Assembly (NCBI GenBank): GCA_026989035.1
Contig: JALSKB010000202.1
Location: forward strand, 1-39,170
Direction of reading: 5' to 3'
DNA: 39,170 nucleotides
From: Saprospiraceae bacterium
GTDB lineage: Bacteria; Bacteroidota; Bacteroidia; Chitinophagales; Saprospiraceae
Position 1 is the stretch's first letter; each line of letters opens with the position of its first letter. The translations under genes were made by a program, and so were the position numbers. Below are positions 6,725 to 23,449 of the stretch, piece by piece. The notes under the pieces were generated by a model. That model did no database searches. It saw only the letters and a list, made by a program, of their open reading frames with translations, and had not been told where the DNA came from.

Positions 6725-7187
6725 AGCTCGAAAAGTTGTGCTTGGTTTGCAAAAATTTTGGCTCGTATCTAAACGTCCTAAAATTTGTGCTTCAAATTTG
6801 CTTTACCTCAAAGCTCTTGAGAGCGAGGTGATGCAAAGGTATGGGATTTCCCTGTTTTGAGGAGGTTTGGAGCAAAGGAGTTTGGATTGTGCAGACATGC
6901 CAAGCCTCGCTTTTGGGGTAAATCCCTTATATACTCATAGCGAAGTGGTTTGGGAGGCGCCAGCCTCCCAAACTCCCTATTTTTTGCCTGTTTGCGAGAC
7001 GTAAATATCCCAAACCATTTCGGTTTGGGTATCTATGACGAAAATCACTAAAAAGCCCTATCTTGCTTCTTAATTTTGCGTCGAGAAGTTTCTTGTGCAA
7101 TGGAAGAACGTTGAATCGCGTATTGGCAAGCATATCTTGGACTGAGGTAGATGGTTGAAGCGCGCGAGACACACAAATACCGCCTCT
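6725..7187. other. Divergent intergenic region between the HMA gene and ccoI
   Basis: 463 bp without a gene. It contains an imperfect dyad around 6798-6827 (CCTC and GCTCT facing AGAGC and GAGG), a minus-strand TACCTTTG box (6841-6834), copy 1 of the interspersed two-hairpin element (6931-7030), and a plus-strand TAATTTTG box (7071-7078) that could serve ccoI although no TTTG lies at the right distance upstream. A TTG-initiated extension of ccoI from 7155 is possible but less likely than the ATG at 7188. Confidence 0.6.
6931..7030 (+). repeat. Interspersed two-hairpin element, copy 1
   Basis: Aligns without gaps to 31015-31114, with 79 of 100 positions identical. Hairpin A has perfect 11-bp arms at 6948-6958 and 6963-6973. 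Hairpin B has 8-bp arms at 7009-7016 and 7022-7029. The outer segments 6942-6955 and 7008-7021 are also complementary to each other with one mismatch, so a second, exclusive fold is possible. It lies upstream of ccoI on the plus strand. Confidence 0.85.
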
Positions 7188-9783: not shown

Positions 9784-9812
9784 TTTGCCCCAAAATCGAT
9801 TGAATACCTTTG
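9784..9812 (+). promoter_or_regulatory. Candidate promoter of ccoS-ccoNO-ccoQ-ccoP
   Basis: TTTG (9784-9787) and TACCTTTG (9805-9812) fit the Bacteroidota pattern, though the 17-nt spacer is two short of the usual 19-21. Transcription would start near 9818, giving a leader of about 13 nt before ccoS and allowing the oxidase structural genes to be expressed separately from ccoI. Confidence 0.45.
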
Positions 9813-9831: not shown

Positions 9832-9999
9832 ATGTTAATCATGCTCTTCCTCATCATGTTGAGTTTAATTTTGGCCCTGGGCTTTTTGTTGGCCTTTTTC
9901 TGGGCTGTAAGGACAGGGCAATTTGATGACGACTATACCCCCTCTGTACGCATTCTCCTCGACGACGACCAACCTAAACGAGATAACCAAAAGGATTGA
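9832..9999 (+). CDS. ccoS: Cytochrome cbb3 oxidase maturation protein CcoS
   Basis: A 55-residue gene. One membrane helix (about residues 2-24, rich in Leu, Ile and Phe) is followed by FFWAVRTGQFDD and RILLDDD, the hallmark sequence of CcoS. CcoS is needed for insertion of heme b and copper into the oxidase; its mechanism is not settled. The start is the ATG at 9832; the ATG at 9821 is in another frame. The stop lies 5 nt before the ccoNO start codon, so the two are surely cotranscribed. Because it is so short it is easily missed in annotation. Confidence 0.93.
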   Translation: MLIMLFLIMLSLILALGFLLAFFWAVRTGQFDDDYTPSVRILLDDDQPKRDNQKD

Positions 10000-10004
10000 C
10001 TTCT

Positions 10005-12128
10005 ATGGCACAACTCGAACATTTTAGTTATGACAACAAAATAGTGCGAAGCTTCGCCTTGGCAACTATTCTCTGGGGCGTAGTGGGTATGACGGTGGGT
10101 CTGTGGATCGCCTTTGCCTTGATTTTCCCGGACATGAACCTGGATACGCCCTGGATGACTTTCGGGCGCATTCGTCCTTTGCACACCAATGCTGCCATTT
10201 TTGCCTTTGTAGGTAACGGTATTTTCATGGGAGTTTACTATTCCTTGCAGCGTTTGCTAAAGACCCGCATGTTCAGCGATTTTCTCAGTAAGCTGCACTT
10301 TTGGGGATGGCAGCTCATCATCGTAGCGGCAGCCTTGACACTGCCCCTGGGAAAGATGGGCGCTCACGAATACGCCGAATTGGAGTGGCCCATAGACATT
10401 GCCATTGCCGTGGTATGGGTAGTCTTTGGCATCAACATGTTCGGCACCATTCTCAAGCGTCGCGAACAACACCTCTATGTAGCCATTTGGTTCTACATCG
10501 CTACCTGGGTGACGGTAACCATGTTGCACATTGGTAACAACCTGGAATTGCCGGTAAGCCTCTGGAAGAGCTATCCGGTTTTTGCCGGTGTGCAAGATGC
10601 CCTCGTACAATGGTGGTACGGGCACAATGCCGTAGCTTTCTTTTTGACGACGCCTTATCTGGGCTTGATGTATTACTTCTTGCCCAAGGCTGCTAACAGG
10701 CCGGTTTTTTCTTATCGTCTGTCTATCGTGCACTTTTGGGCCTTGATTTTCATTTACATTTGGGCCGGGCCGCACCACCTGCTTTATACCTCTTTGCCCG
10801 ATTGGGCACAGTCTTTAGGTACGGTTTTCTCTGTCATGTTGATTGCGCCGTCCTGGGGCGGGATGCTGAACGGTCTGTTGACCCTGCGCGGAGCCTGGGA
10901 TCGCGTACGCCAGGATCCCATTCTCAAATTCATGGTCGTTGCCGTTACGGCTTACGGTATGTCCACTTTTGAAGGGCCTATGCTCTCTATCAAGTCGGTC
11001 AACGCCATCAGTCACTTTACAGACTGGACCATCGGCCACGTGCACATAGGCACTTTGGGCTGGAATGGCTTTCTCACCTTTGGCATTTTGTACTGGTTGA
11101 TCCCGCGTTTGTACAACACCAAATTGCACTCCGTTTCTTTGGCCAATGCTCATTTCTGGATAGGTACGTTGGGCATTCTGTTCTATGCCATTCCGCTTTA
11201 CGGAGCCGGCTGGACACAAGCCTTGATGTGGAAGCAGTTTAATCCTGACGGGACTTTGGTTTATCCCAATTTTTTGGAAACGGTAACTCAGATTCTGCCC
11301 ATGTATGCCATGCGAGCTTTTGGCGGCACACTTTATTTGACCGGAGTGCTCATAATGGTTTACAACCTGGTGAAAACCATGGGAGCAGGTGCTTTTATCG
11401 GCGATGAAGAAGCCGAAGCACCAGCCTTGCAGCCGCATGTTGCTCACGGTAAAGAATACTGGCACAAATGGATTGAACGCAAGCCCGTTCAAATGCTGAT
11501 TGTTTCCTTGATTGTAGTTCTCATAGGTGGGATTGTAGAGATTGCGCCTATGCTCTTGGTCGAAGACAATGTGCCTAAGATAGAATCTGTCAAGCCTTAT
11601 ACGCCCCTGGAACTGGCCGGGCGAGACATTTACATACGGGAAGGTTGCCTGGCTTGTCATTCTCAGATGATTCGTCCCTTCCGTTCGGAAACGGAGCGCT
11701 ATGGCGAATATTCCAAATCGGGAGAATACATTTACGATCGTCCTTTTCTTTGGGGTTCCAAGCGTACAGGTCCGGATTTGCACCGCGTAGGAGGAAAATA
11801 CAACCATGCTTGGCATTACAACCACATGATGGACCCCACCAGTACCTCGTCGCAATCTATCATGCCTAGATACAGCTGGTTGCACGAAAACATCTTGGAT
11901 GCTTCGGATATCCCGGCAAAAATCAGGGTGTTGCAAAAGCTGCATACGCCCTATCCCAAGGGATACGATAAAATTGCGCTGAAAGATCTGGAAAAACAGG
12001 CGAAGAAAATTGCCGGTGAGTTGCGTGAACAATTGGGAGAAGATTTGGATGACCCGAATCTTGAAAAACGCGAGATCATTGCCCTTATCGCCTATTTACA
12101 ACGATTGGGAACGGACCTTTCCAAGTGA
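10005..12128 (+). CDS. ccoNO: Fused cbb3-type cytochrome c oxidase subunits I and II (CcoN-CcoO)
   Basis: Catalytic core of a high-affinity terminal oxidase that reduces oxygen to water at the inner membrane. The 707-residue product joins the 12-helix CcoN part (about 1-470) to the CcoO part (about 485-707). In CcoN, histidines in HTNAAIFAFVGNG, WWYGHNAVAFF, AGPHHLLYT and WTIGHVHIGTLGWNGF are the expected ligands of the hemes and CuB. CcoO has one membrane helix and a c-type heme site CLACH at 548-552, followed by the usual SQMIRPFRSE. Separate ccoN and ccoO genes are the rule in Proteobacteria; the fusion is common in Bacteroidota. The start is the ATG at 10005; a TTG at 9996 overlapping ccoS is less likely. 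Confidence 0.95.
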   Translation: MAQLEHFSYDNKIVRSFALATILWGVVGMTVGLWIAFALIFPDMNLDTPWMTFGRIRPLHTNAAIFAFVGNGIFMGVYYSLQRLLKTRMFSDFLSKLHFWGWQLIIVAAALTLPLGKMGAHEYAELEWPIDIAIAVVWVVFGINMFGTILKRREQHLYVAIWFYIATWVTVTMLHIGNNLELPVSLWKSYPVFAGVQDALVQWWYGHNAVAFFLTTPYLGLMYYFLPKAANRPVFSYRLSIVHFWALIFIYIWAGPHHLLYTSLPDWAQSLGTVFSVMLIAPSWGGMLNGLLTLRGAWDRVRQDPILKFMVVAVTAYGMSTFEGPMLSIKSVNAISHFTDWTIGHVHIGTLGWNGFLTFGILYWLIPRLYNTKLHSVSLANAHFWIGTLGILFYAIPLYGAGWTQALMWKQFNPDGTLVYPNFLETVTQILPMYAMRAFGGTLYLTGVLIMVYNLVKTMGAGAFIGDEEAEAPALQPHVAHGKEYWHKWIERKPVQMLIVSLIVVLIGGIVEIAPMLLVEDNVPKIESVKPYTPLELAGRDIYIREGCLACHSQMIRPFRSETERYGEYSKSGEYIYDRPFLWGSKRTGPDLHRVGGKYNHAWHYNHMMDPTSTSSQSIMPRYSWLHENILDASDIPAKIRVLQKLHTPYPKGYDKIALKDLEKQAKKIAGELREQLGEDLDDPNLEKREIIALIAYLQRLGTDLSK

Positions 12129-12134
12129 AACCGT

Positions 12135-12161
12135 TGGGGCAGGGGTTCAACCCCTGCCCCG
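12135..12161 (+). other. Perfect GC-rich hairpin between ccoNO and ccoQ
   Basis: Arms 12136-12145 and 12151-12160 (GGGGCAGGGG and CCCCTGCCCC) pair perfectly around a TTCAA loop, whose outer T and A can pair as well. No T run follows, so it is not a standard terminator. It lies 7 nt after the ccoNO stop codon and could protect the 3' end of the upstream message or lower expression of downstream genes. Confidence 0.7.
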
Positions 12162-12177
12162 GCATAACAACGAACTC

Positions 12178-12375
12178 ATGTTTAAATTTTTGCTCCAGGG
12201 TGAAGACATCAATTGGATGGCGGTGTTCGGGCTGATTACTTTTGTTTTGCTCTTCATCGTCATCGTGCTGGTAGCCTTCTTCAGAGATTCTGCTTTTATG
12301 AATAAAATGGCCCGTATGCCATTGGAAGAAGATGATGCTCAAACAGCTCATGTCGATCAAAACCACCCGGAATAA
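12178..12375 (+). CDS. ccoQ: Small cbb3 oxidase subunit, CcoQ-like
   Basis: A 65-residue protein with one membrane helix (about residues 12-36) followed by a charged tail. Size, topology and position between ccoNO and ccoP fit CcoQ/FixQ, the accessory subunit that stabilises the oxidase; sequence conservation in this family is weak, so the name rests mainly on position. The start is the ATG at 12178, just after the hairpin; the frame is open farther upstream but only over the end of ccoNO. The stop lies 40 nt before ccoP. Confidence 0.7.
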   Translation: MFKFLLQGEDINWMAVFGLITFVLLFIVIVLVAFFRDSAFMNKMARMPLEEDDAQTAHVDQNHPE

Positions 12376-12415
12376 GACCCAGGTACACTCACCACCTCAA
12401 CAAAAGAAACAAAAC

Positions 12416-13381
12416 ATGAAAATCAAAAACTGGACATTCTTTGGAATATTCACCGGCCTCTTGGCCTCTCCTATAGTAAGCTTTGCCCAGGAAACGGCAA
12501 ACAATGGTGAAGCAGGTTTGGACAGCAATACGGATTTGGTTAAGTGGCTGATTATAACAGCGGCAGTTATTATCATCATCGCGGTCTTGGCACTTTTCAA
12601 GGTGCTCAACAGCATGCTCAAGCTCCAGGAGATTGAGGCTCTGCGCCAAATGGGTATGGAAGAAGCCGCCCAAAAAATAGCTGCCGAACGTCGTATCCCC
12701 TGGTGGCGCCGCCTCATGGAACGCTGGACAGATGCCGTACCCGTTGAGCAGGAAAAAGACGTTCTCTTCGACCACGACTTTGACGGCATACAAGAGCTCG
12801 ACAATAAACTTCCGCCTTGGTGGCTGGCCCTTTTCTATGTGACCATCGGCTTTGCTGTAGTTTATATGTTTTACTATCACTTCCTGGGTATAGGGCCTGG
12901 TTCTCAGGAGATGTATCAGCAAGAAATGAAACAAGCCGAAATGGCCATAGCAGAGTACAAGGCTGCTCATGGTACCGGTGTGGATGAGACTAATGTTACC
13001 TTGCTCGACGGAGAAACCGATTTGGCCGTTGGGCAAACCGTTTACCAAACCCATTGTGTCGCTTGCCACGGTACACAGGGGGAAGGGGGGATAGGCCCCA
13101 ACTTCGCCGACAACTACTGGATTCATGGCTGCGACATCAAAGACCTTTTCAAAACCATCAAGTTTGGTGTTCCTGAAAAAGGGATGTTGGCCTGGAAGGA
13201 CCAGCTCAAGCCCGAAGAAATTCAAAAAGTCGCCAGTTTTATCCTCGTGAAGTTGAACGGCACCAACCCGCCCAATGCGAAAAATCCGCAAGGAGAGCCT
13301 TGCGATGCCAAAGCTGCAGCTGAGTCCGGAGAAGGAGAAGAACCGGCAGACACCTCTTCTACAACAGAGGTGGAAAACTAA
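12416..13381 (+). CDS. ccoP: cbb3 oxidase subunit III, mono-heme CcoP
   Basis: Membrane-bound cytochrome c that passes electrons to the oxidase core. The 321-residue product has a hydrophobic N-terminus ending in FAQE that may be a signal peptide or helix, then helices at about 43-63 and 139-160. A periplasmic cytochrome c domain follows with a single CVACH heme site (C214-H218) and the distal methionine probably in EKGMLAW. Proteobacterial CcoP normally carries two such sites; only one is present here. The end is low-complexity and rich in Glu, Ala and Ser. I start at the ATG at 12416; the 28 codons upstream overlap ccoQ. A strong hairpin follows 15 nt after the stop. Confidence 0.9.
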   Translation: MKIKNWTFFGIFTGLLASPIVSFAQETANNGEAGLDSNTDLVKWLIITAAVIIIIAVLALFKVLNSMLKLQEIEALRQMGMEEAAQKIAAERRIPWWRRLMERWTDAVPVEQEKDVLFDHDFDGIQELDNKLPPWWLALFYVTIGFAVVYMFYYHFLGIGPGSQEMYQQEMKQAEMAIAEYKAAHGTGVDETNVTLLDGETDLAVGQTVYQTHCVACHGTQGEGGIGPNFADNYWIHGCDIKDLFKTIKFGVPEKGMLAWKDQLKPEEIQKVASFILVKLNGTNPPNAKNPQGEPCDAKAAAESGEGEEPADTSSTTEVEN

Positions 13382-13396
13382 AAAACTAAATGGAGA

Positions 13397-13432
13397 AGTG
13401 GTGCCCGGGTCTAAAAGACTGCGGGCACCACT
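13397..13432 (+). terminator. Strong hairpin after ccoP (possible terminator or mRNA-stability element)
   Basis: Arms 13397-13407 and 13422-13432 form a perfect 11-bp stem (AGTGGTGCCCG and its complement). Its 14-nt loop can form a second small stem, GTCT-AAA-AGAC. No T run follows. It divides the oxidase structural genes from ccoG-ccoH, where a 151-nt gap would allow partial termination or processing. Confidence 0.55.
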
Positions 13433-13532
13433 CATGTGCTTGTAAACCCTCAACTGCGTTTGGTTTAATCTACTTCAAAGAGGTTGATCTGCTTTTCAAA
13501 GCAGAACCACAACAACACAATGCAACAAGAAG

Positions 13533-14978
13533 ATGTCAACCATTAAACAAACGCAGCCGCCTCAGGGCGAATCATTCAGAGATCACATCTCTACCGTAGA
13601 TGAGAAATCGGGAAAGCGAATTTGGGTTTATCCCAAAAAACCCAAAGGGCGTTTTTACCGTTGGCGTACCTGGTTAAGTTGGGTGCTGTTGGGCTTTCTG
13701 TTTCTAGCGCCTTTCATTAAAGTCAATGGGCATCCACTGCTCTTGTTCAACATCATTGAGCGCAAATTCATTCTCTTTGGTGTGCAATTCCTGCCTCAGG
13801 ATTTCCACCTTTTTGTCTTTGCCGCGTTGACAGCTATCGTCTTCCTCATTCTCTTCACGGTGATTTACGGACGCATTTTTTGTGGATGGGTTTGTCCCCA
13901 GACCATTTTCATGGAAATGGTCTTTAGGAAGATTGAATACCTTATCGAAGGCGATGCCAAGGCCCAAAAGCGTTTGGCGAAAGCCCCCTGGACAGCTGAA
14001 AAAATTTTCAAGAAAACTTTGAAAATCGGCATCTTTTTTCTCATTGCCGTTCTCATCGCCAACGTTTTCCTCTCTTACATCATTGGCGTAGATCAGGTGC
14101 TAAAAATCGCTTCGGAGCCCATTAGCCAACATGTCGGAGGTTTTATCGCCATGTTGCTCTTTTCTTTCGCGTTTTTCGGGGTTTTTGCCTACATGCGGGA
14201 GCAGGTTTGCATTGCCATTTGCCCCTACGGTCGCTTACAAGGGGTTATGATAAACCAGGATACCGTTGTCATTGCTTACGATTTTGTTCGCGGAGAACCG
14301 CGAGGCAAGCTTCGCAAAGGGCAGACCGATAGCGACACCCAAAAACAGGGGGATTGCATCGATTGTAAACTCTGCGTGCAGGTTTGCCCTACGGGTATAG
14401 ACATTCGCAACGGTACTCAGCTGGAATGCATCAACTGTACGGCTTGCATAGACGCTTGTGATGCTGTGATGGACAAAATCGGCAAGCCGAGGGGGTTGAT
14501 TCGCTACGATAGCTACAACGGCATTGTCAGAGGAGAGAAGAAAATCTTGACGCCTCGCGTCATTGCTTATACCGTGGTTTTGGGTTTGCTCATCCTGGGG
14601 AATATCCTTTTGCTCAGCAACCGAAGCCAGGTAGAAACGCTTTTGTTGCGTGCTCAGGGTCAGCTCTACCAACACGTGGATGAAAACTACATCAGCAATT
14701 TGTACACCTATGAGGTGATCAATAAGACGGAAAAAGCAATGCCCGTTACTTTTCAACTCGCTGAAGGTGATAGGAAAAAAATGTCGGGCGTGCGTTTTCG
14801 CATTGTGGGAGATAAACAACCCGTCGCAGAACCCGGGAAAGCGGTTAAAGGCGTTTTGTTTATCGATATTCCCGCGGATCAACTTCAATCGAGAAAGACT
14901 GTTCTCCATATAGAAGTGTTGTCTAATGGAAAAATTGTCGATCGGACGAAGACGACTTTTCTGGGACCCATCAAATGA
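13533..14978 (+). CDS. ccoG: Cytochrome c oxidase accessory protein CcoG (FixG/RdxA)
   Basis: A membrane iron-sulfur protein needed for cbb3 assembly; CcoG has been linked to reduction of copper for the oxidase. The 481-residue product has N-terminal helices and the family motif FCGWVCPQ. Two 4Fe-4S cluster motifs are C275xxC278xxC281xxxCP and C299xxC302xxC305xxxC309, the last helix is at about 345-365, and a C-terminal immunoglobulin-like periplasmic domain typical of FixG follows. All cluster cysteines are present. It is separated from ccoP by 151 nt with a hairpin and from ccoH by 48 nt with another. A 13-bp motif copy lies at 13973-13985. Confidence 0.94.
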   Translation: MSTIKQTQPPQGESFRDHISTVDEKSGKRIWVYPKKPKGRFYRWRTWLSWVLLGFLFLAPFIKVNGHPLLLFNIIERKFILFGVQFLPQDFHLFVFAALTAIVFLILFTVIYGRIFCGWVCPQTIFMEMVFRKIEYLIEGDAKAQKRLAKAPWTAEKIFKKTLKIGIFFLIAVLIANVFLSYIIGVDQVLKIASEPISQHVGGFIAMLLFSFAFFGVFAYMREQVCIAICPYGRLQGVMINQDTVVIAYDFVRGEPRGKLRKGQTDSDTQKQGDCIDCKLCVQVCPTGIDIRNGTQLECINCTACIDACDAVMDKIGKPRGLIRYDSYNGIVRGEKKILTPRVIAYTVVLGLLILGNILLLSNRSQVETLLLRAQGQLYQHVDENYISNLYTYEVINKTEKAMPVTFQLAEGDRKKMSGVRFRIVGDKQPVAEPGKAVKGVLFIDIPADQLQSRKTVLHIEVLSNGKIVDRTKTTFLGPIK

Positions 14979-14981
14979 AAA

Positions 14982-15024
14982 ATGCGGCTTGGGCTGTCAA
15001 GTCCAAGCCGCATAAAGCGTTTTT
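14982..15024 (+). terminator. Hairpin with T run between ccoG and ccoH
   Basis: A perfect 11-bp stem, arms 14982-14992 and 15003-15013, encloses a 10-nt loop. It is followed by AAAGCG and five Ts. It begins 3 nt after the ccoG stop and ends just before the ccoH start at 15027. Because ccoH clearly belongs with ccoG, it is more likely a leaky terminator or processing site than a full stop. Confidence 0.55.
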
Positions 15025-15026
15025 CC

Positions 15027-15470
15027 ATGAAAATTCAATTCCACTGGGGTACGGGCATTGCCTTGGTTTTTGCTCTTTTTGTTTTCAGCTTGGTCTTTGC
15101 CGTCATCAAATCCACCACCATAGATCATTCGCTGGTGCGAGATGACTACTATAAAGAAGATGTGCACTACCAGGAGAAGAAAGATAAGATGGCGCGCACC
15201 CGTCAGCTGGGTGAAGCGGTGGGTATCCAATACCTGAAAGATCAGGGACTGCTCATGCTTTACTTCCCTCGCAGCATGGAACCCGAGGGCGAAGTACAAC
15301 TCTATCGAGCTTCCGATGCCTCCTTGGATCGCCGCTTTCCCCTTGAAGTGGATAGTTCGGGCATTCAACTGGTGCCGGTACGCAGCTTACAAGCCGGTTC
15401 TTGGACCGTCAAAGTCGATTGGAAGGCTCACGGTCAGGCTTATTATATGGAAAAGAACATCTACTTCTGA
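15027..15470 (+). CDS. ccoH: FixH/CcoH family protein of cbb3 oxidase assembly
   Basis: A 147-residue membrane protein with one N-terminal helix (about residues 8-29) and a periplasmic beta-rich domain, the arrangement of FixH/CcoH, which stabilises late assembly intermediates of the oxidase. The sequence DDYYKEDVHYQEK after the helix is the typical conserved stretch. The start is the ATG at 15027; the frame opens 15 codons earlier within the hairpin, which is unlikely to be translated. The next gene starts one nucleotide after the stop, so the two must be cotranscribed. Confidence 0.9.
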   Translation: MKIQFHWGTGIALVFALFVFSLVFAVIKSTTIDHSLVRDDYYKEDVHYQEKKDKMARTRQLGEAVGIQYLKDQGLLMLYFPRSMEPEGEVQLYRASDASLDRRFPLEVDSSGIQLVPVRSLQAGSWTVKVDWKAHGQAYYMEKNIYF

Positions 15471-15471
15471 G

Positions 15472-16170
15472 ATGCTGCTCTGGACGGCTTTTACCATCGG
15501 TTTATTGGGTAGCGTACATTGCGTGGGTATGTGTGGCCCCATTGCTTTGGCCCTGCCTTACGGCAAACAAAGCCGCGCTTTGGCCGTGTTCAACGCCTTG
15601 CAATACAACTTGGGGCGGGTTTTTACTTACATGCTTTTGGGCTTGCTTTTCGGATTTATCGGTCAGGGTGTTTTTTTGGCAGGCTATCAATCGGCCCTGT
15701 CTGTCGTTTTGGGTTTGCTGATGTTCTTCCTGGCTTTCTTTTCGCTCAACCTGGAAAAGTATCTGGTACACAGTTCTTTCTTTGGTCGCGCTTTGCAAAA
15801 GCTCAAAACCTCTTTGGCCCGTTTGCTCAAGGTAGATAGCAGGCCTTCCTTTTTTCTCATCGGTTTGCTCAACGGCTTGCTGCCTTGTGGCTTGGTGTAC
15901 ATGGCTGTAGTCGGAGCCGTATCAACGGGAAATGTGCTCATGGCCTCCTTGTATATGGGGCTTTTCGGTTTAGGAACCTTGCCTTTGATGCTGGCTACCT
16001 CTTTGGCAGGCCATTTGGCCAGTTTGCGCTTCCGCAAATACTTGCAGCGATTGCTGCCTCTGCTGCTGGTGACCATGGGAGTTCTCTTTCTGCTCAGGGG
16101 GCTCAACTTCCACCTTCCGGCAGATTTTTATCTCTGGGATGCCTTACACGACCCGCCTATGTGTCATTGA
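15472..16170 (+). CDS. SafE/DsbD_2-type membrane protein of the cbb3 locus
   Basis: A 232-residue protein with about six membrane helices. The N-terminus carries HCVGMCGP (about residues 16-23) and the second half repeats the pattern with GLLPCGLVY. This belongs to the DsbD_2 group often labelled sulfite exporter TauE/SafE, whose members beside cco or cytochrome genes are thought to handle copper or thiols. Position as last gene of the cbb3 locus, one nucleotide after ccoH, supports a role in oxidase copper supply; sulfite export is unlikely. The C-terminus is His/Met-rich (DPPMCH) and may bind metal, which is inference. It converges on the RND operon, with a terminator hairpin between them. 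Confidence 0.8.
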   Translation: MLLWTAFTIGLLGSVHCVGMCGPIALALPYGKQSRALAVFNALQYNLGRVFTYMLLGLLFGFIGQGVFLAGYQSALSVVLGLLMFFLAFFSLNLEKYLVHSSFFGRALQKLKTSLARLLKVDSRPSFFLIGLLNGLLPCGLVYMAVVGAVSTGNVLMASLYMGLFGLGTLPLMLATSLAGHLASLRFRKYLQRLLPLLLVTMGVLFLLRGLNFHLPADFYLWDALHDPPMCH

Positions 16171-16174
16171 AAAA

Positions 16175-16216
16175 GAGAGCCTCAGCCCGGAACTAACTCA
16201 GCAGCCCGGGCTGAGG
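16175..16216 (-). terminator. Hairpin terminator at the end of the RND operon
   Basis: Arms 16180-16190 and 16206-16216 pair perfectly over 11 bp with a 15-nt loop. Read on the minus strand, the stem is followed by CTCTC and five Ts, so it fits a rho-independent terminator for the adaptor gene. It may also stop transcripts arriving from the cco side. Confidence 0.7.
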
Positions 16217-23375: not shown

Positions 23376-23449
23376 GGTCCCATAGCTCAGTTGGTTAGAG
23401 CAACTGACTCATAATCAGTAGGTCGCAGGTTCAAGTCCTGCTGGGACCA
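23376..23449 (+). tRNA. tRNA with CAU anticodon (Met or lysidine-modified Ile2)
   Basis: The 74-nt sequence folds into a full cloverleaf: acceptor stem 23376-23382 with 23442-23448, D arm from 23385, anticodon stem 23403-23407 with 23415-23419, anticodon CAT at 23410-23412, T stem 23425-23429 with 23437-23441, discriminator A at 23449. CCA is not encoded. The first pair is G-C, so it is not an initiator. The acceptor has C4-G69 and C5-G68, which favour lysidine synthase recognition in E. coli tRNA-Ile2, and the GGTCGC-AGGTTCAAGTCC part resembles Ile2 more than elongator Met. Ile2 is therefore a serious alternative. Confidence 0.95.

Follow-up and report, generated by a model that had tools for sequence, protein, structure and literature searches.

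Retained hairpins with replaced sequences at the gene junctions of a Saprospiraceae cbb3 oxidase operon: candidate 3'-end caps

Gene organization and hairpins at the cbb3 locus

The window analysed here is a stretch of 39,170 nt from a Saprospiraceae bacterium (assembly GCA_026989035.1, contig JALSKB010000202.1, positions 1 to 39,170 of the forward strand). It holds a row of genes for a cbb3 oxidase and its accessory proteins (Table 1) that, judging from strand and spacing, appears to form a single operon. The small protein in the ccoQ position has no Pfam match and is 60% identical to a reading frame at the equivalent place in a sister species. The promoter-like call upstream of ccoS is based on TTTG/TAnnTTTG, which we take to be the Bacteroidota consensus; a pattern search of the window gave six matches of the TTTG-N17 type against 1.68 expected, and none to the assumed consensus in the ccoP-ccoG gap.

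Table 1. Genes, hairpins and other features of the cbb3 locus
Feature	Position	Strand	Basis
Promoter-like TTTG-N17-TACCTTTG upstream of ccoS	9784..9812	+	Pattern search
ccoS (FixS)	9832..9999	+	Pfam PF03597
ccoNO fusion (COX1 + FixO)	10005..12128	+	Pfam PF00115, PF02433
Hairpin 1, ccoNO-ccoQ junction, 14 pairs, no T tract	12133..12163	+	RNA fold
ccoQ-like small protein, 65 aa	12178..12375	+	Position and sister-species counterpart
ccoQ-ccoP gap, 40 nt, without hairpin (internal control)	12376..12415	+	
ccoP	12416..13381	+	Pfam FixP_N, Cytochrome_CBB3
Hairpin 2, ccoP-ccoG junction, 16 pairs, one bulge, no T tract	13397..13432	+	RNA fold
ccoG	13533..14978	+	Pfam Fer4_18, FixG_C
Hairpin 3, ccoG-ccoH junction, 14 pairs	14982..15013	+	RNA fold
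T run TTTTT in ccoH leader	15020..15024	+	
ccoH (FixH)	15027..15470	+	Pfam PF05751
DsbD_2-family membrane protein, final gene of row	15472..16170	+	Pfam PF13386
Hairpin 4, convergent gap after final gene, 11 bp	16180..16216	.	RNA fold

The initial annotation had placed stems at 12136, 13397 and 14982, and all three are there, each with a perfect Watson-Crick core of 11 bp. Hairpins 1, 2 and 3 fold with -29.6, -27.2 and -26.6 kcal/mol (z -4.85, -4.87 and -5.69), and for each of them none of 200 shuffles was equally stable. They begin 4, 15 and 3 nt past the stop codons of ccoNO, ccoP and ccoG, and the leaders of the next genes, 14, 100 and 13 nt long, stay outside the stem. The same annotation counted three gaps with one hairpin each. 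Three hairpins were indeed found, but counted from ccoNO the row comprises five junctions, and neither the ccoQ-ccoP gap nor the 1 nt junction between ccoH and the next gene holds a hairpin. The T run ascribed to the third hairpin is also present, but it lies six bases off the stem and two before the ccoH ATG, and so is not positioned like the tail of an intrinsic terminator. An intrinsic (Rho-independent) terminator has a GC-rich stem with a U tract immediately after it, an arrangement that hairpins 1, 2 and 3 all lack. Hairpin 4 (z -4.3) has a T tract on neither side.

Two possible identities were rejected. In the window, covariance models at gathering score match only a tRNA at 23376-23449, which leaves no known Rfam family for the hairpins, and the 25-base core of stem 1 occurs nowhere else in the genome even when up to 3 mismatches are allowed, which leaves no repeat family for that stem.

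Hairpins at the same junctions in relatives

Comparison with related species, which had been proposed as a check, showed that these gaps hold stems there too, with differing sequences. In the sister species each of the three gaps contains one hairpin, unrelated in sequence to those of the window, with fold z of -5.3, -4.0 and -4.4; z varies with the stretch folded, and with gap limits taken from the gene caller it was -2.9, -5.9 and -2.6. We then counted strong folds (z<-3 for the initial 120 or 150 nt of each gap) across loci of the window's family, after removing 20 of 189 records as near-duplicates and excluding L003, which duplicates the contig of L084. Gene calls came from a home-made dicodon scorer; start codons in the relatives were assigned by rule, as was ccoQ wherever BLAST had missed it, which introduces error into gap lengths. 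A strong fold follows ccoNO at 34/87 loci, ccoP at 32/91 and ccoG at 15/66, against 3/69 after ccoQ and 3/47 after ccoH, so that the three hairpin-bearing junctions of the window account for 81/244 and the other two for 6/116 (Fisher p 4e-10). Each hairpin is absent from most family loci, the ccoNO-ccoQ hairpin from 53 of 87, and is therefore dispensable. Among cultured Bacteroidota, Larkinella arboricola (L078) has the ccoNO-ccoQ fold, and Rufibacter sp. XAAS-G3-1 (L079) has folds at both ccoNO-ccoQ and ccoP-ccoG.

Placement at the ccoNO-ccoQ junction is regular. The 50 hairpins there begin a median of 5 nt (IQR 3-9) past the stop codon and end 18 nt (15-24) ahead of ccoQ, with a median of -26.3 kcal/mol. 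This fairly constant distance to ccoQ, and the rarity of hairpins where genes nearly touch (median gaps of 5 nt between ccoQ and ccoP and 1 nt between ccoH and its neighbour), would be expected of a translation insulator, in which the stem keeps terminating ribosomes off the next start, or keeps an A-rich leader open, so that each gene starts independently. We consider this very improbable, since ccoNO-ccoQ gaps of 20-40 nt carry no strong fold at 18 of 87 family loci and the gaps are shorter still at another 25.

Replacement of sequence and inheritance of presence

In the pairs L188/L193 and L011/L247 the ccoNO genes are 86-87% identical at the DNA level, yet the stems differ. In the closest pair seen (L236/L237, 95% ccoNO identity) the stems are similar rather than swapped. 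The one alignable pair (L013/L016) favours retention of structure over sequence: read by eye, it has two changes on both sides of a base pair and none that breaks one. In relatives the same junctions often still hold a hairpin of new sequence, a pattern that argues for a structural role in the mRNA.

In a tree built from 84 members of the family, presence at the ccoNO-ccoQ junction shows at least 18 changes (in shuffles a mean of 26.1 and a minimum of 19), presence at ccoP-ccoG 20 times (24.8, 19) and presence at ccoG-ccoH 11 times (13.6, 10). There is some inheritance at the first junction, whereas the second and third show hardly more than chance would give. Co-occurrence of hairpins across junctions gave odds ratios of 5 to 11, not significant with independent pairs on a tree.

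Frequent switching of this kind would also be produced by inverted repeats that a mutational or mobile process creates and that survive, functionless here, wherever a gap has room. Many long stems consist of periodic arms of 7-8 nt repeats, which are dispersed in some genomes (one octad type reaches 206+203 matches in a single genome), and this build looks more like a repeat process than fine tuning. The pair L086/L236, with a 14 nt gap without a hairpin in one and a 63 nt gap with a hairpin in the other, fits the same explanation. A functionless origin does not readily account for the bias among junctions, for the distance of about 5 nt from the stop codon or for the orientation of the arms relative to the gene: G outnumbers C on the 5' arm in 29/33 untied cases at ccoNO-ccoQ, 38/42 at ccoP-ccoG and 16/19 at ccoG-ccoH (of 37, 51 and 25 hairpins), which is not expected of a strand-neutral DNA palindrome. 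Nor does it agree with the uniqueness of stem 1 in its genome or with the gap-size comparison beside 23 named loci, where 19/46 cbb3 tandem gaps of 40-160 nt reach z<-3 against 1/37 other tandem gaps of that size (odds ratio 25). Above 160 nt the contrast between cbb3 and other gaps at these loci is gone (2/15 vs 2/27). Taken together, we regard tolerated repeats as quite unlikely to be the explanation.

The ratio of G-U to A-C mismatches served as a test for a sense-strand role. In cbb3 stems it was 27:18, which is not significant (p 0.23). In tandem gaps of the window's own genome it was 9:0, a count that still includes the window's cbb3 gaps and a dispersed element, and the ratios were 7:3 at atpG loci and 2:2 at sdhB loci.

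Termination and the hairpin background of the genome

We also weighed leaky internal termination, in which some of the hairpins halt polymerase and fewer polymerases reach ccoQP and ccoGH. In a 522 kb sample of the window's own genome, 31 of the 181 tandem gaps measuring 20-1000 nt hold a stem of at least 10 bp, where shuffles give about 0.5; 8 of the 31 are occupied by an unrelated dispersed element. Such stems cluster in convergent gaps (14/33, counting gaps of at least 20 nt) relative to divergent ones (6/52), as terminators would. With the dispersed-element gaps removed, 5 of 12 convergent-gap hairpins have no T tract, which suggests that termination in this genome may do without it. The ccoP-ccoG hairpin of the sister species ends in CTTTTT and is a good terminator of the intrinsic type, and internal terminators low in U with long GC-rich stems have been described in R. 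cellulolyticum (PMC9045158).

Against this, T tracts follow only 2/50 hairpins at ccoNO-ccoQ (8/50 at ccoP-ccoG and 2/25 at ccoG-ccoH), and the eight bases after the ccoNO-ccoQ stem are rich in A (214 A and 81 T of 399). A strong stop at this junction would sever ccoQ and ccoP, which encode subunits of the same enzyme, and the lack of a promoter match between ccoP and ccoG is a weak sign that transcription arrives at ccoG by read-through of hairpin 2. We judge leaky termination to be unlikely.

Hairpins in other operons

Hairpins are not peculiar to cbb3 genes, and their background frequency varies from operon to operon. Among tandem gaps of 40-600 nt, strong folds were found in 88/191 at cbb3 loci, 22/44 around atpG and 10/38 around sdhB, the latter two sets comprising the best-scoring 30 loci among 58 and 59 genomes that had a match. 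Immediately upstream of atpG, where the neighbouring gene is presumably atpA, the junction is itself rich in hairpins (13/29 tandem junctions; 6 short, 3 unscored), and a device specific to cbb3 operons was rejected on this ground. Upstream of sdhB, next to what we take to be sdhA, the count is 5/27 (8 short, 1 unscored). Presence at ccoNO-ccoQ and presence at atpG were not significantly associated by genome (p 0.30, 14 genomes). COX3, matched in just 4 of 61 genomes, was dropped as a control operon.

A proposed model of swappable 3'-end caps

The structural role is most likely capping of the upstream piece of mRNA. We propose that the hairpins act in the sense-strand RNA as swappable intercistronic caps that protect the upstream message at its 3' end, in the manner of the stem-loops of selective RNA processing and stabilization (SRPS), a reading to which we give an even chance. 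An endonuclease would cut the operon message past the hairpin, within the A-rich leader that stays unpaired, and 3'-to-5' exonucleases would halt at the stem. The upstream piece (ccoNO, ccoNOQP and so on) would then outlast the downstream piece, and transcript levels could fall stepwise along the operon. Selection would maintain a strong stem at its place rather than its letters, so that stems could be swapped freely.

The roles suggested in the initial annotation, namely RNA processing, protection of 3' ends or partial termination, are compatible with the position of the hairpins, their lack of T tracts and the gene-oriented arms. Its proposed outcome, more CcoNO than assembly factors, does not fit hairpin 1, because that hairpin parts ccoNO from the oxidase subunits ccoQ and ccoP. 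An effect of the hairpins on subunit ratio is a prediction of the capping model.

More broadly, and tentatively, the family of the window may use a punctuation that tolerates turnover, in which strong hairpins arise continually, some of them from inverted arrays of 7-8 nt repeats whose upstream arm is G-rich, and are exchanged yet kept at particular operon junctions, where they would serve as 3' caps free of sequence constraint. Selection would keep position and strength while the element is replaced even within a genus. We think it unlikely that this wider picture holds.

Conserved RNA elements are usually detected through sequence or alignment covariation, and junction hairpins would be missed because the hairpin is retained while its sequence is replaced. 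If the hairpins do cap message ends, close relatives offer natural on/off and strong/weak variants at a single junction, and whether stem strength sets the subunit ratio becomes directly testable.

Relation to known systems

Several described systems share features with the cbb3 hairpins. A survey of 40 genomes found stable stem-loops enriched at the 3' side of genes; its abstract mentions no comparison of individual junctions across species (PMC1590033). The HRC-8-4 motif, set beside the cbb3 hairpins here by its description, is likewise a structured RNA that usually lies between ccoP and ccoG, separating ccoNOQP from ccoGHIS, but it is described as found only in Rhodobacterales and is likened to riboswitches (PMC8632094). 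The low-U internal terminators of ABC importer operons resemble the cbb3 hairpins in having long GC-rich stems between genes and weak U tracts; there, as described, termination was studied experimentally (PMC9045158), whereas 48 of 50 ccoNO-ccoQ stems have no T tract. In E. coli, RNA structures protect upstream operon segments from 3' exonucleases, as we infer here, although the structures described lie mostly within coding sequence and are often conserved (PMC5927463), whereas the cbb3 hairpins sit in gaps and turn over.

The closest parallel is with the SRPS stem-loops of the cip-cel operon of C. cellulolyticum. According to the account of that operon, orthologous stem-loops are partly conserved in sequence and processing sites have been mapped (PMC4423207), whereas cbb3 stems at one junction are often wholly different between relatives. 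Of the 33 stem-loops at processing sites reported there, 28 have no U run and 27 lie at 3' processing sites (PMC4423207). The cbb3 hairpins are of the same description, being stable stem-loops downstream of a gene in a putative operon and mostly without a U run. Like the cbb3 hairpins, the cip-cel stem-loops are placed directly downstream of particular operon genes, are linked to subunits of protein complexes and differ among species (PMC4423207).

Hairpins in the cbb3 gene row

The window comes from a draft genome of 3.12 Mb. In it ccoS, the fused ccoNO, ccoQ, ccoP, ccoG, ccoH and a DsbD_2-family gene follow one another in this order, all on the plus strand. Assignments are from Pfam except for ccoQ, which has no Pfam match and was assigned by position and similarity. 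The initial annotation had reported three different hairpins in three gaps of this row, perhaps tuning subunit ratios. Their presence was borne out by RNA fold strength, expressed as z relative to shuffled sequence. The window's cbb3 genes have four tandem gaps of at least 40 nt; exactly the three that were named had z<-3 (a strong fold), and the three hairpins were far more stable than shuffled sequence. A fourth hairpin lies 3' of the last gene of the row, and hairpins are absent from the ccoQ-ccoP and ccoH-next gene junctions of the window. Stem 1 is present as a single copy in its genome.

Positions of features in the window
Feature	Positions	Location
Dispersed element	6930-7022	upstream of P-type ATPase gene
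Core of dispersed element	6949-6972
Promoter-like match	9784-9812	directly ahead of ccoS
Hairpin 1	12133-12163	after ccoNO
Hairpin 2	13397-13432	after ccoP
Hairpin 3	14982-15013	after ccoG
Hairpin 4	16180-16216	3' of last gene

The promoter-like sequence, TTTG-N17-TACCTTTG, is a good match to the Bacteroidota promoter consensus, so the ccoI-like ATPase gene upstream would fall outside the main unit. No match to this consensus occurs within the window's ccoP-ccoG gap.

The P-type ATPase gene listed in the table adjoins the cbb3 genes. The element upstream of it is ~95 bases long, with a palindromic core (TTTGGGAGGC-N4-GCCTCCCAAA) and partly inverted ends (CGAAGTGGTTTGGGA and TCCCAAACCATTTCG). 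At one mismatch or fewer the core has 138 matches in its own genome, and a search of four relatives, including two congeners, gave zero; none of 17 copies in a sample of the genome lay within a called gene. The element resembles a MITE or REP-like family that has expanded in this species alone.

Recurrence at the same junctions in relatives

Loci were collected blind to hairpins. CcoG gave 80 named loci, the best-scoring among 588, and CcoP gave 30 out of 68 genomes with a match (own genome included); a further 80 stretches came from 165 genomes with a CcoG match. The analysed set of 189 records was reduced to 169 once near-duplicates were removed.

In the sister species, represented by the nearest named relative, Saprospiraceae isolate S144_25 (WGBN01000304.1, locus L003, 7,559 bases), the same three junctions each carry one strong hairpin of unrelated sequence (z -5.3, -4.0 and -4.4), as anticipated for stems that differ in sequence between related gaps. 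For the gaps as delimited by the gene caller, z was -2.9, -5.9 and -2.6. By eye, no strong stem was seen in its ccoQ-ccoP gap, and the stretch 3' of its last gene folded into no strong hairpin (z -0.1). The hairpin in its ccoP-ccoG gap resembles a terminator, with T bases after the stem, yet ccoG, ccoH and the next gene come directly after.

Strong folds by junction in the window's family and among the named loci (all junctions includes short gaps)
Junction	Family, all junctions	Family, gaps >=40 nt	Named loci, all junctions
ccoNO-ccoQ	34/87	34/44	16/68
ccoQ-ccoP	3/69	3/10	2/31
ccoP-ccoG	32/91	32/59	18/74
ccoG-ccoH	15/66	15/28	10/76
ccoH-next gene	3/47	3/5	0/64

The all-junction series is the fairer of the two, because a hairpin itself makes its gap longer. 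Many named loci come from outside Saprospiraceae, and those bearing hairpins include Larkinella, Pontibacter, Rufibacter, Spirosoma and Flexithrix. Around 23 named loci, strong folds occupied 19/46 cbb3 tandem gaps of 40-160 nt compared with 1/37 neighbouring ones; above 160 nt the counts were 2/15 and 2/27.

Hairpins at other gene ends

That the hairpin is a cbb3 invention is ruled out by the junctions upstream of atpG (13/29 strong folds; 6 short, 3 unscored) and sdhB (5/27; 8 short, 1 unscored), each from the 30 best-scoring loci. When every tandem gap of 40-600 nt is counted, strong folds were found in 22/44 at atpG loci, 10/38 at sdhB loci and 88/191 at cbb3 loci, so the background itself varies. 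In the window's genome, 16 of the 104 other, non-cbb3 tandem gaps of 40-160 nt had z<-3.

We also sampled 522 kb of this genome (404 called genes, 363 gaps), scoring stems of at least 10 bp in gaps of 20-1000 nt. Such stems occurred in 31/181 tandem, 14/33 convergent and 6/52 divergent gaps. After exclusion of gaps with the dispersed element, 23 tandem and 12 convergent hairpins were left, and in 9 and 7 of these, respectively, the stem end carries a T tract. Gene ends are thus generally hairpin-marked here, and lack of a T tract is not rare. Leaky termination at the hairpins is the main rival explanation, since low-U internal terminators are already known (PMC9045158) and the ccoP-ccoG hairpin of L003 carries a T tract.

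Placement, make and turnover of the stems

The ccoNO-ccoQ stems lie a median of 5 nt past the stop and 18 nt ahead of the next start, followed by A-rich sequence. Among untied cases the 5' arm has more G than C in 29/33 hairpins at ccoNO-ccoQ, 38/42 at ccoP-ccoG and 16/19 at ccoG-ccoH, as well as in 13/16 hairpins of atpG loci and 21/26 in tandem gaps of the window's genome. This shared bias indicates elements oriented by gene.

Stems can change between close relatives. Two pairs (L188/L193 and L011/L247) have ccoNO DNA 86-87% identical, yet their stems differ at the same spot; the close relatives L086 and L236 have a stem in one and none in the other, with a similar A-rich leader after the spot. 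Stems are similar in the closest pair seen, L236/L237 (95% ccoNO identity). Among 23 pairs at least 77% identical over 500 bases, folds below -2.5 were found in both members of 10, one of 6 and neither of 7. Gap identity in the 10 both-folded pairs was 0.41-0.76 versus a mean of 0.47 for random hairpin gaps (sd 0.11, max 0.68, n=200). Where stems could still be aligned (L013/L016), 2 of 13 base pairs were altered on both sides and 0 broken, by eye. A quick tree with 84 members of the family shows at least 18 changes in hairpin presence at ccoNO-ccoQ, fewer than with shuffled labels (mean 26.1, minimum 19); the 20 changes at ccoP-ccoG (shuffled 24.8) and 11 at ccoG-ccoH (shuffled 13.6) were close to shuffled values.

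A neutral repeat process behind the hairpins is the second rival. In 46 arms of at least 16 nt, letters recurred at distances 7 and 8 (match 0.467 and 0.489 versus 0.306 and 0.307 after shuffling), with a weak signal at 14 and none at the remaining distances from 2 to 14; the window stems are short and lack this repeat-array make. Long hairpins in the ccoNO-ccoQ gaps of L242, L245, L249 and others are inverted arrays of 7-8 nt repeats, which occur at cbb3 and atp junctions alike. One octad type is dispersed throughout four genomes of one genus (g19). Octad GTTGAGNNGTTGAG has 206+203 matches in G280 and 180+181 in G246 (reversed control 20-33), 80+80 in G125 and 70+58 in G199; two genomes from a different genus have just 1+0 and 10+1. 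Among the matches listed, many are opposed pairs less than 150 bases apart. Heptamer direct repeats (TAACTGA) are known in some Bacteroidetes (PMC4679880), and the part of that account considered contains no inverted octad hairpins.

Possible function

Among titles and abstract openings, with most subscription papers and all preprints outside the scope, we found no literature on such hairpins in Bacteroidota cbb3 operons; nor are they described in the parts consulted of the Flavobacterium psychrophilum transcriptome (PMC9723704) or the B. thetaiotaomicron map (PMC7366714). The hairpins are candidates for a 3'-end cap after RNA cleavage, a reading from sequence that fits where they sit, the orientation of their arms by gene, the lack of T tracts and the freedom with which their letters are exchanged. 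Capping of this kind is described for operons under selective RNA processing and stabilization (PMC4423207), and differential decay in E. coli is a further case (PMC5927463).
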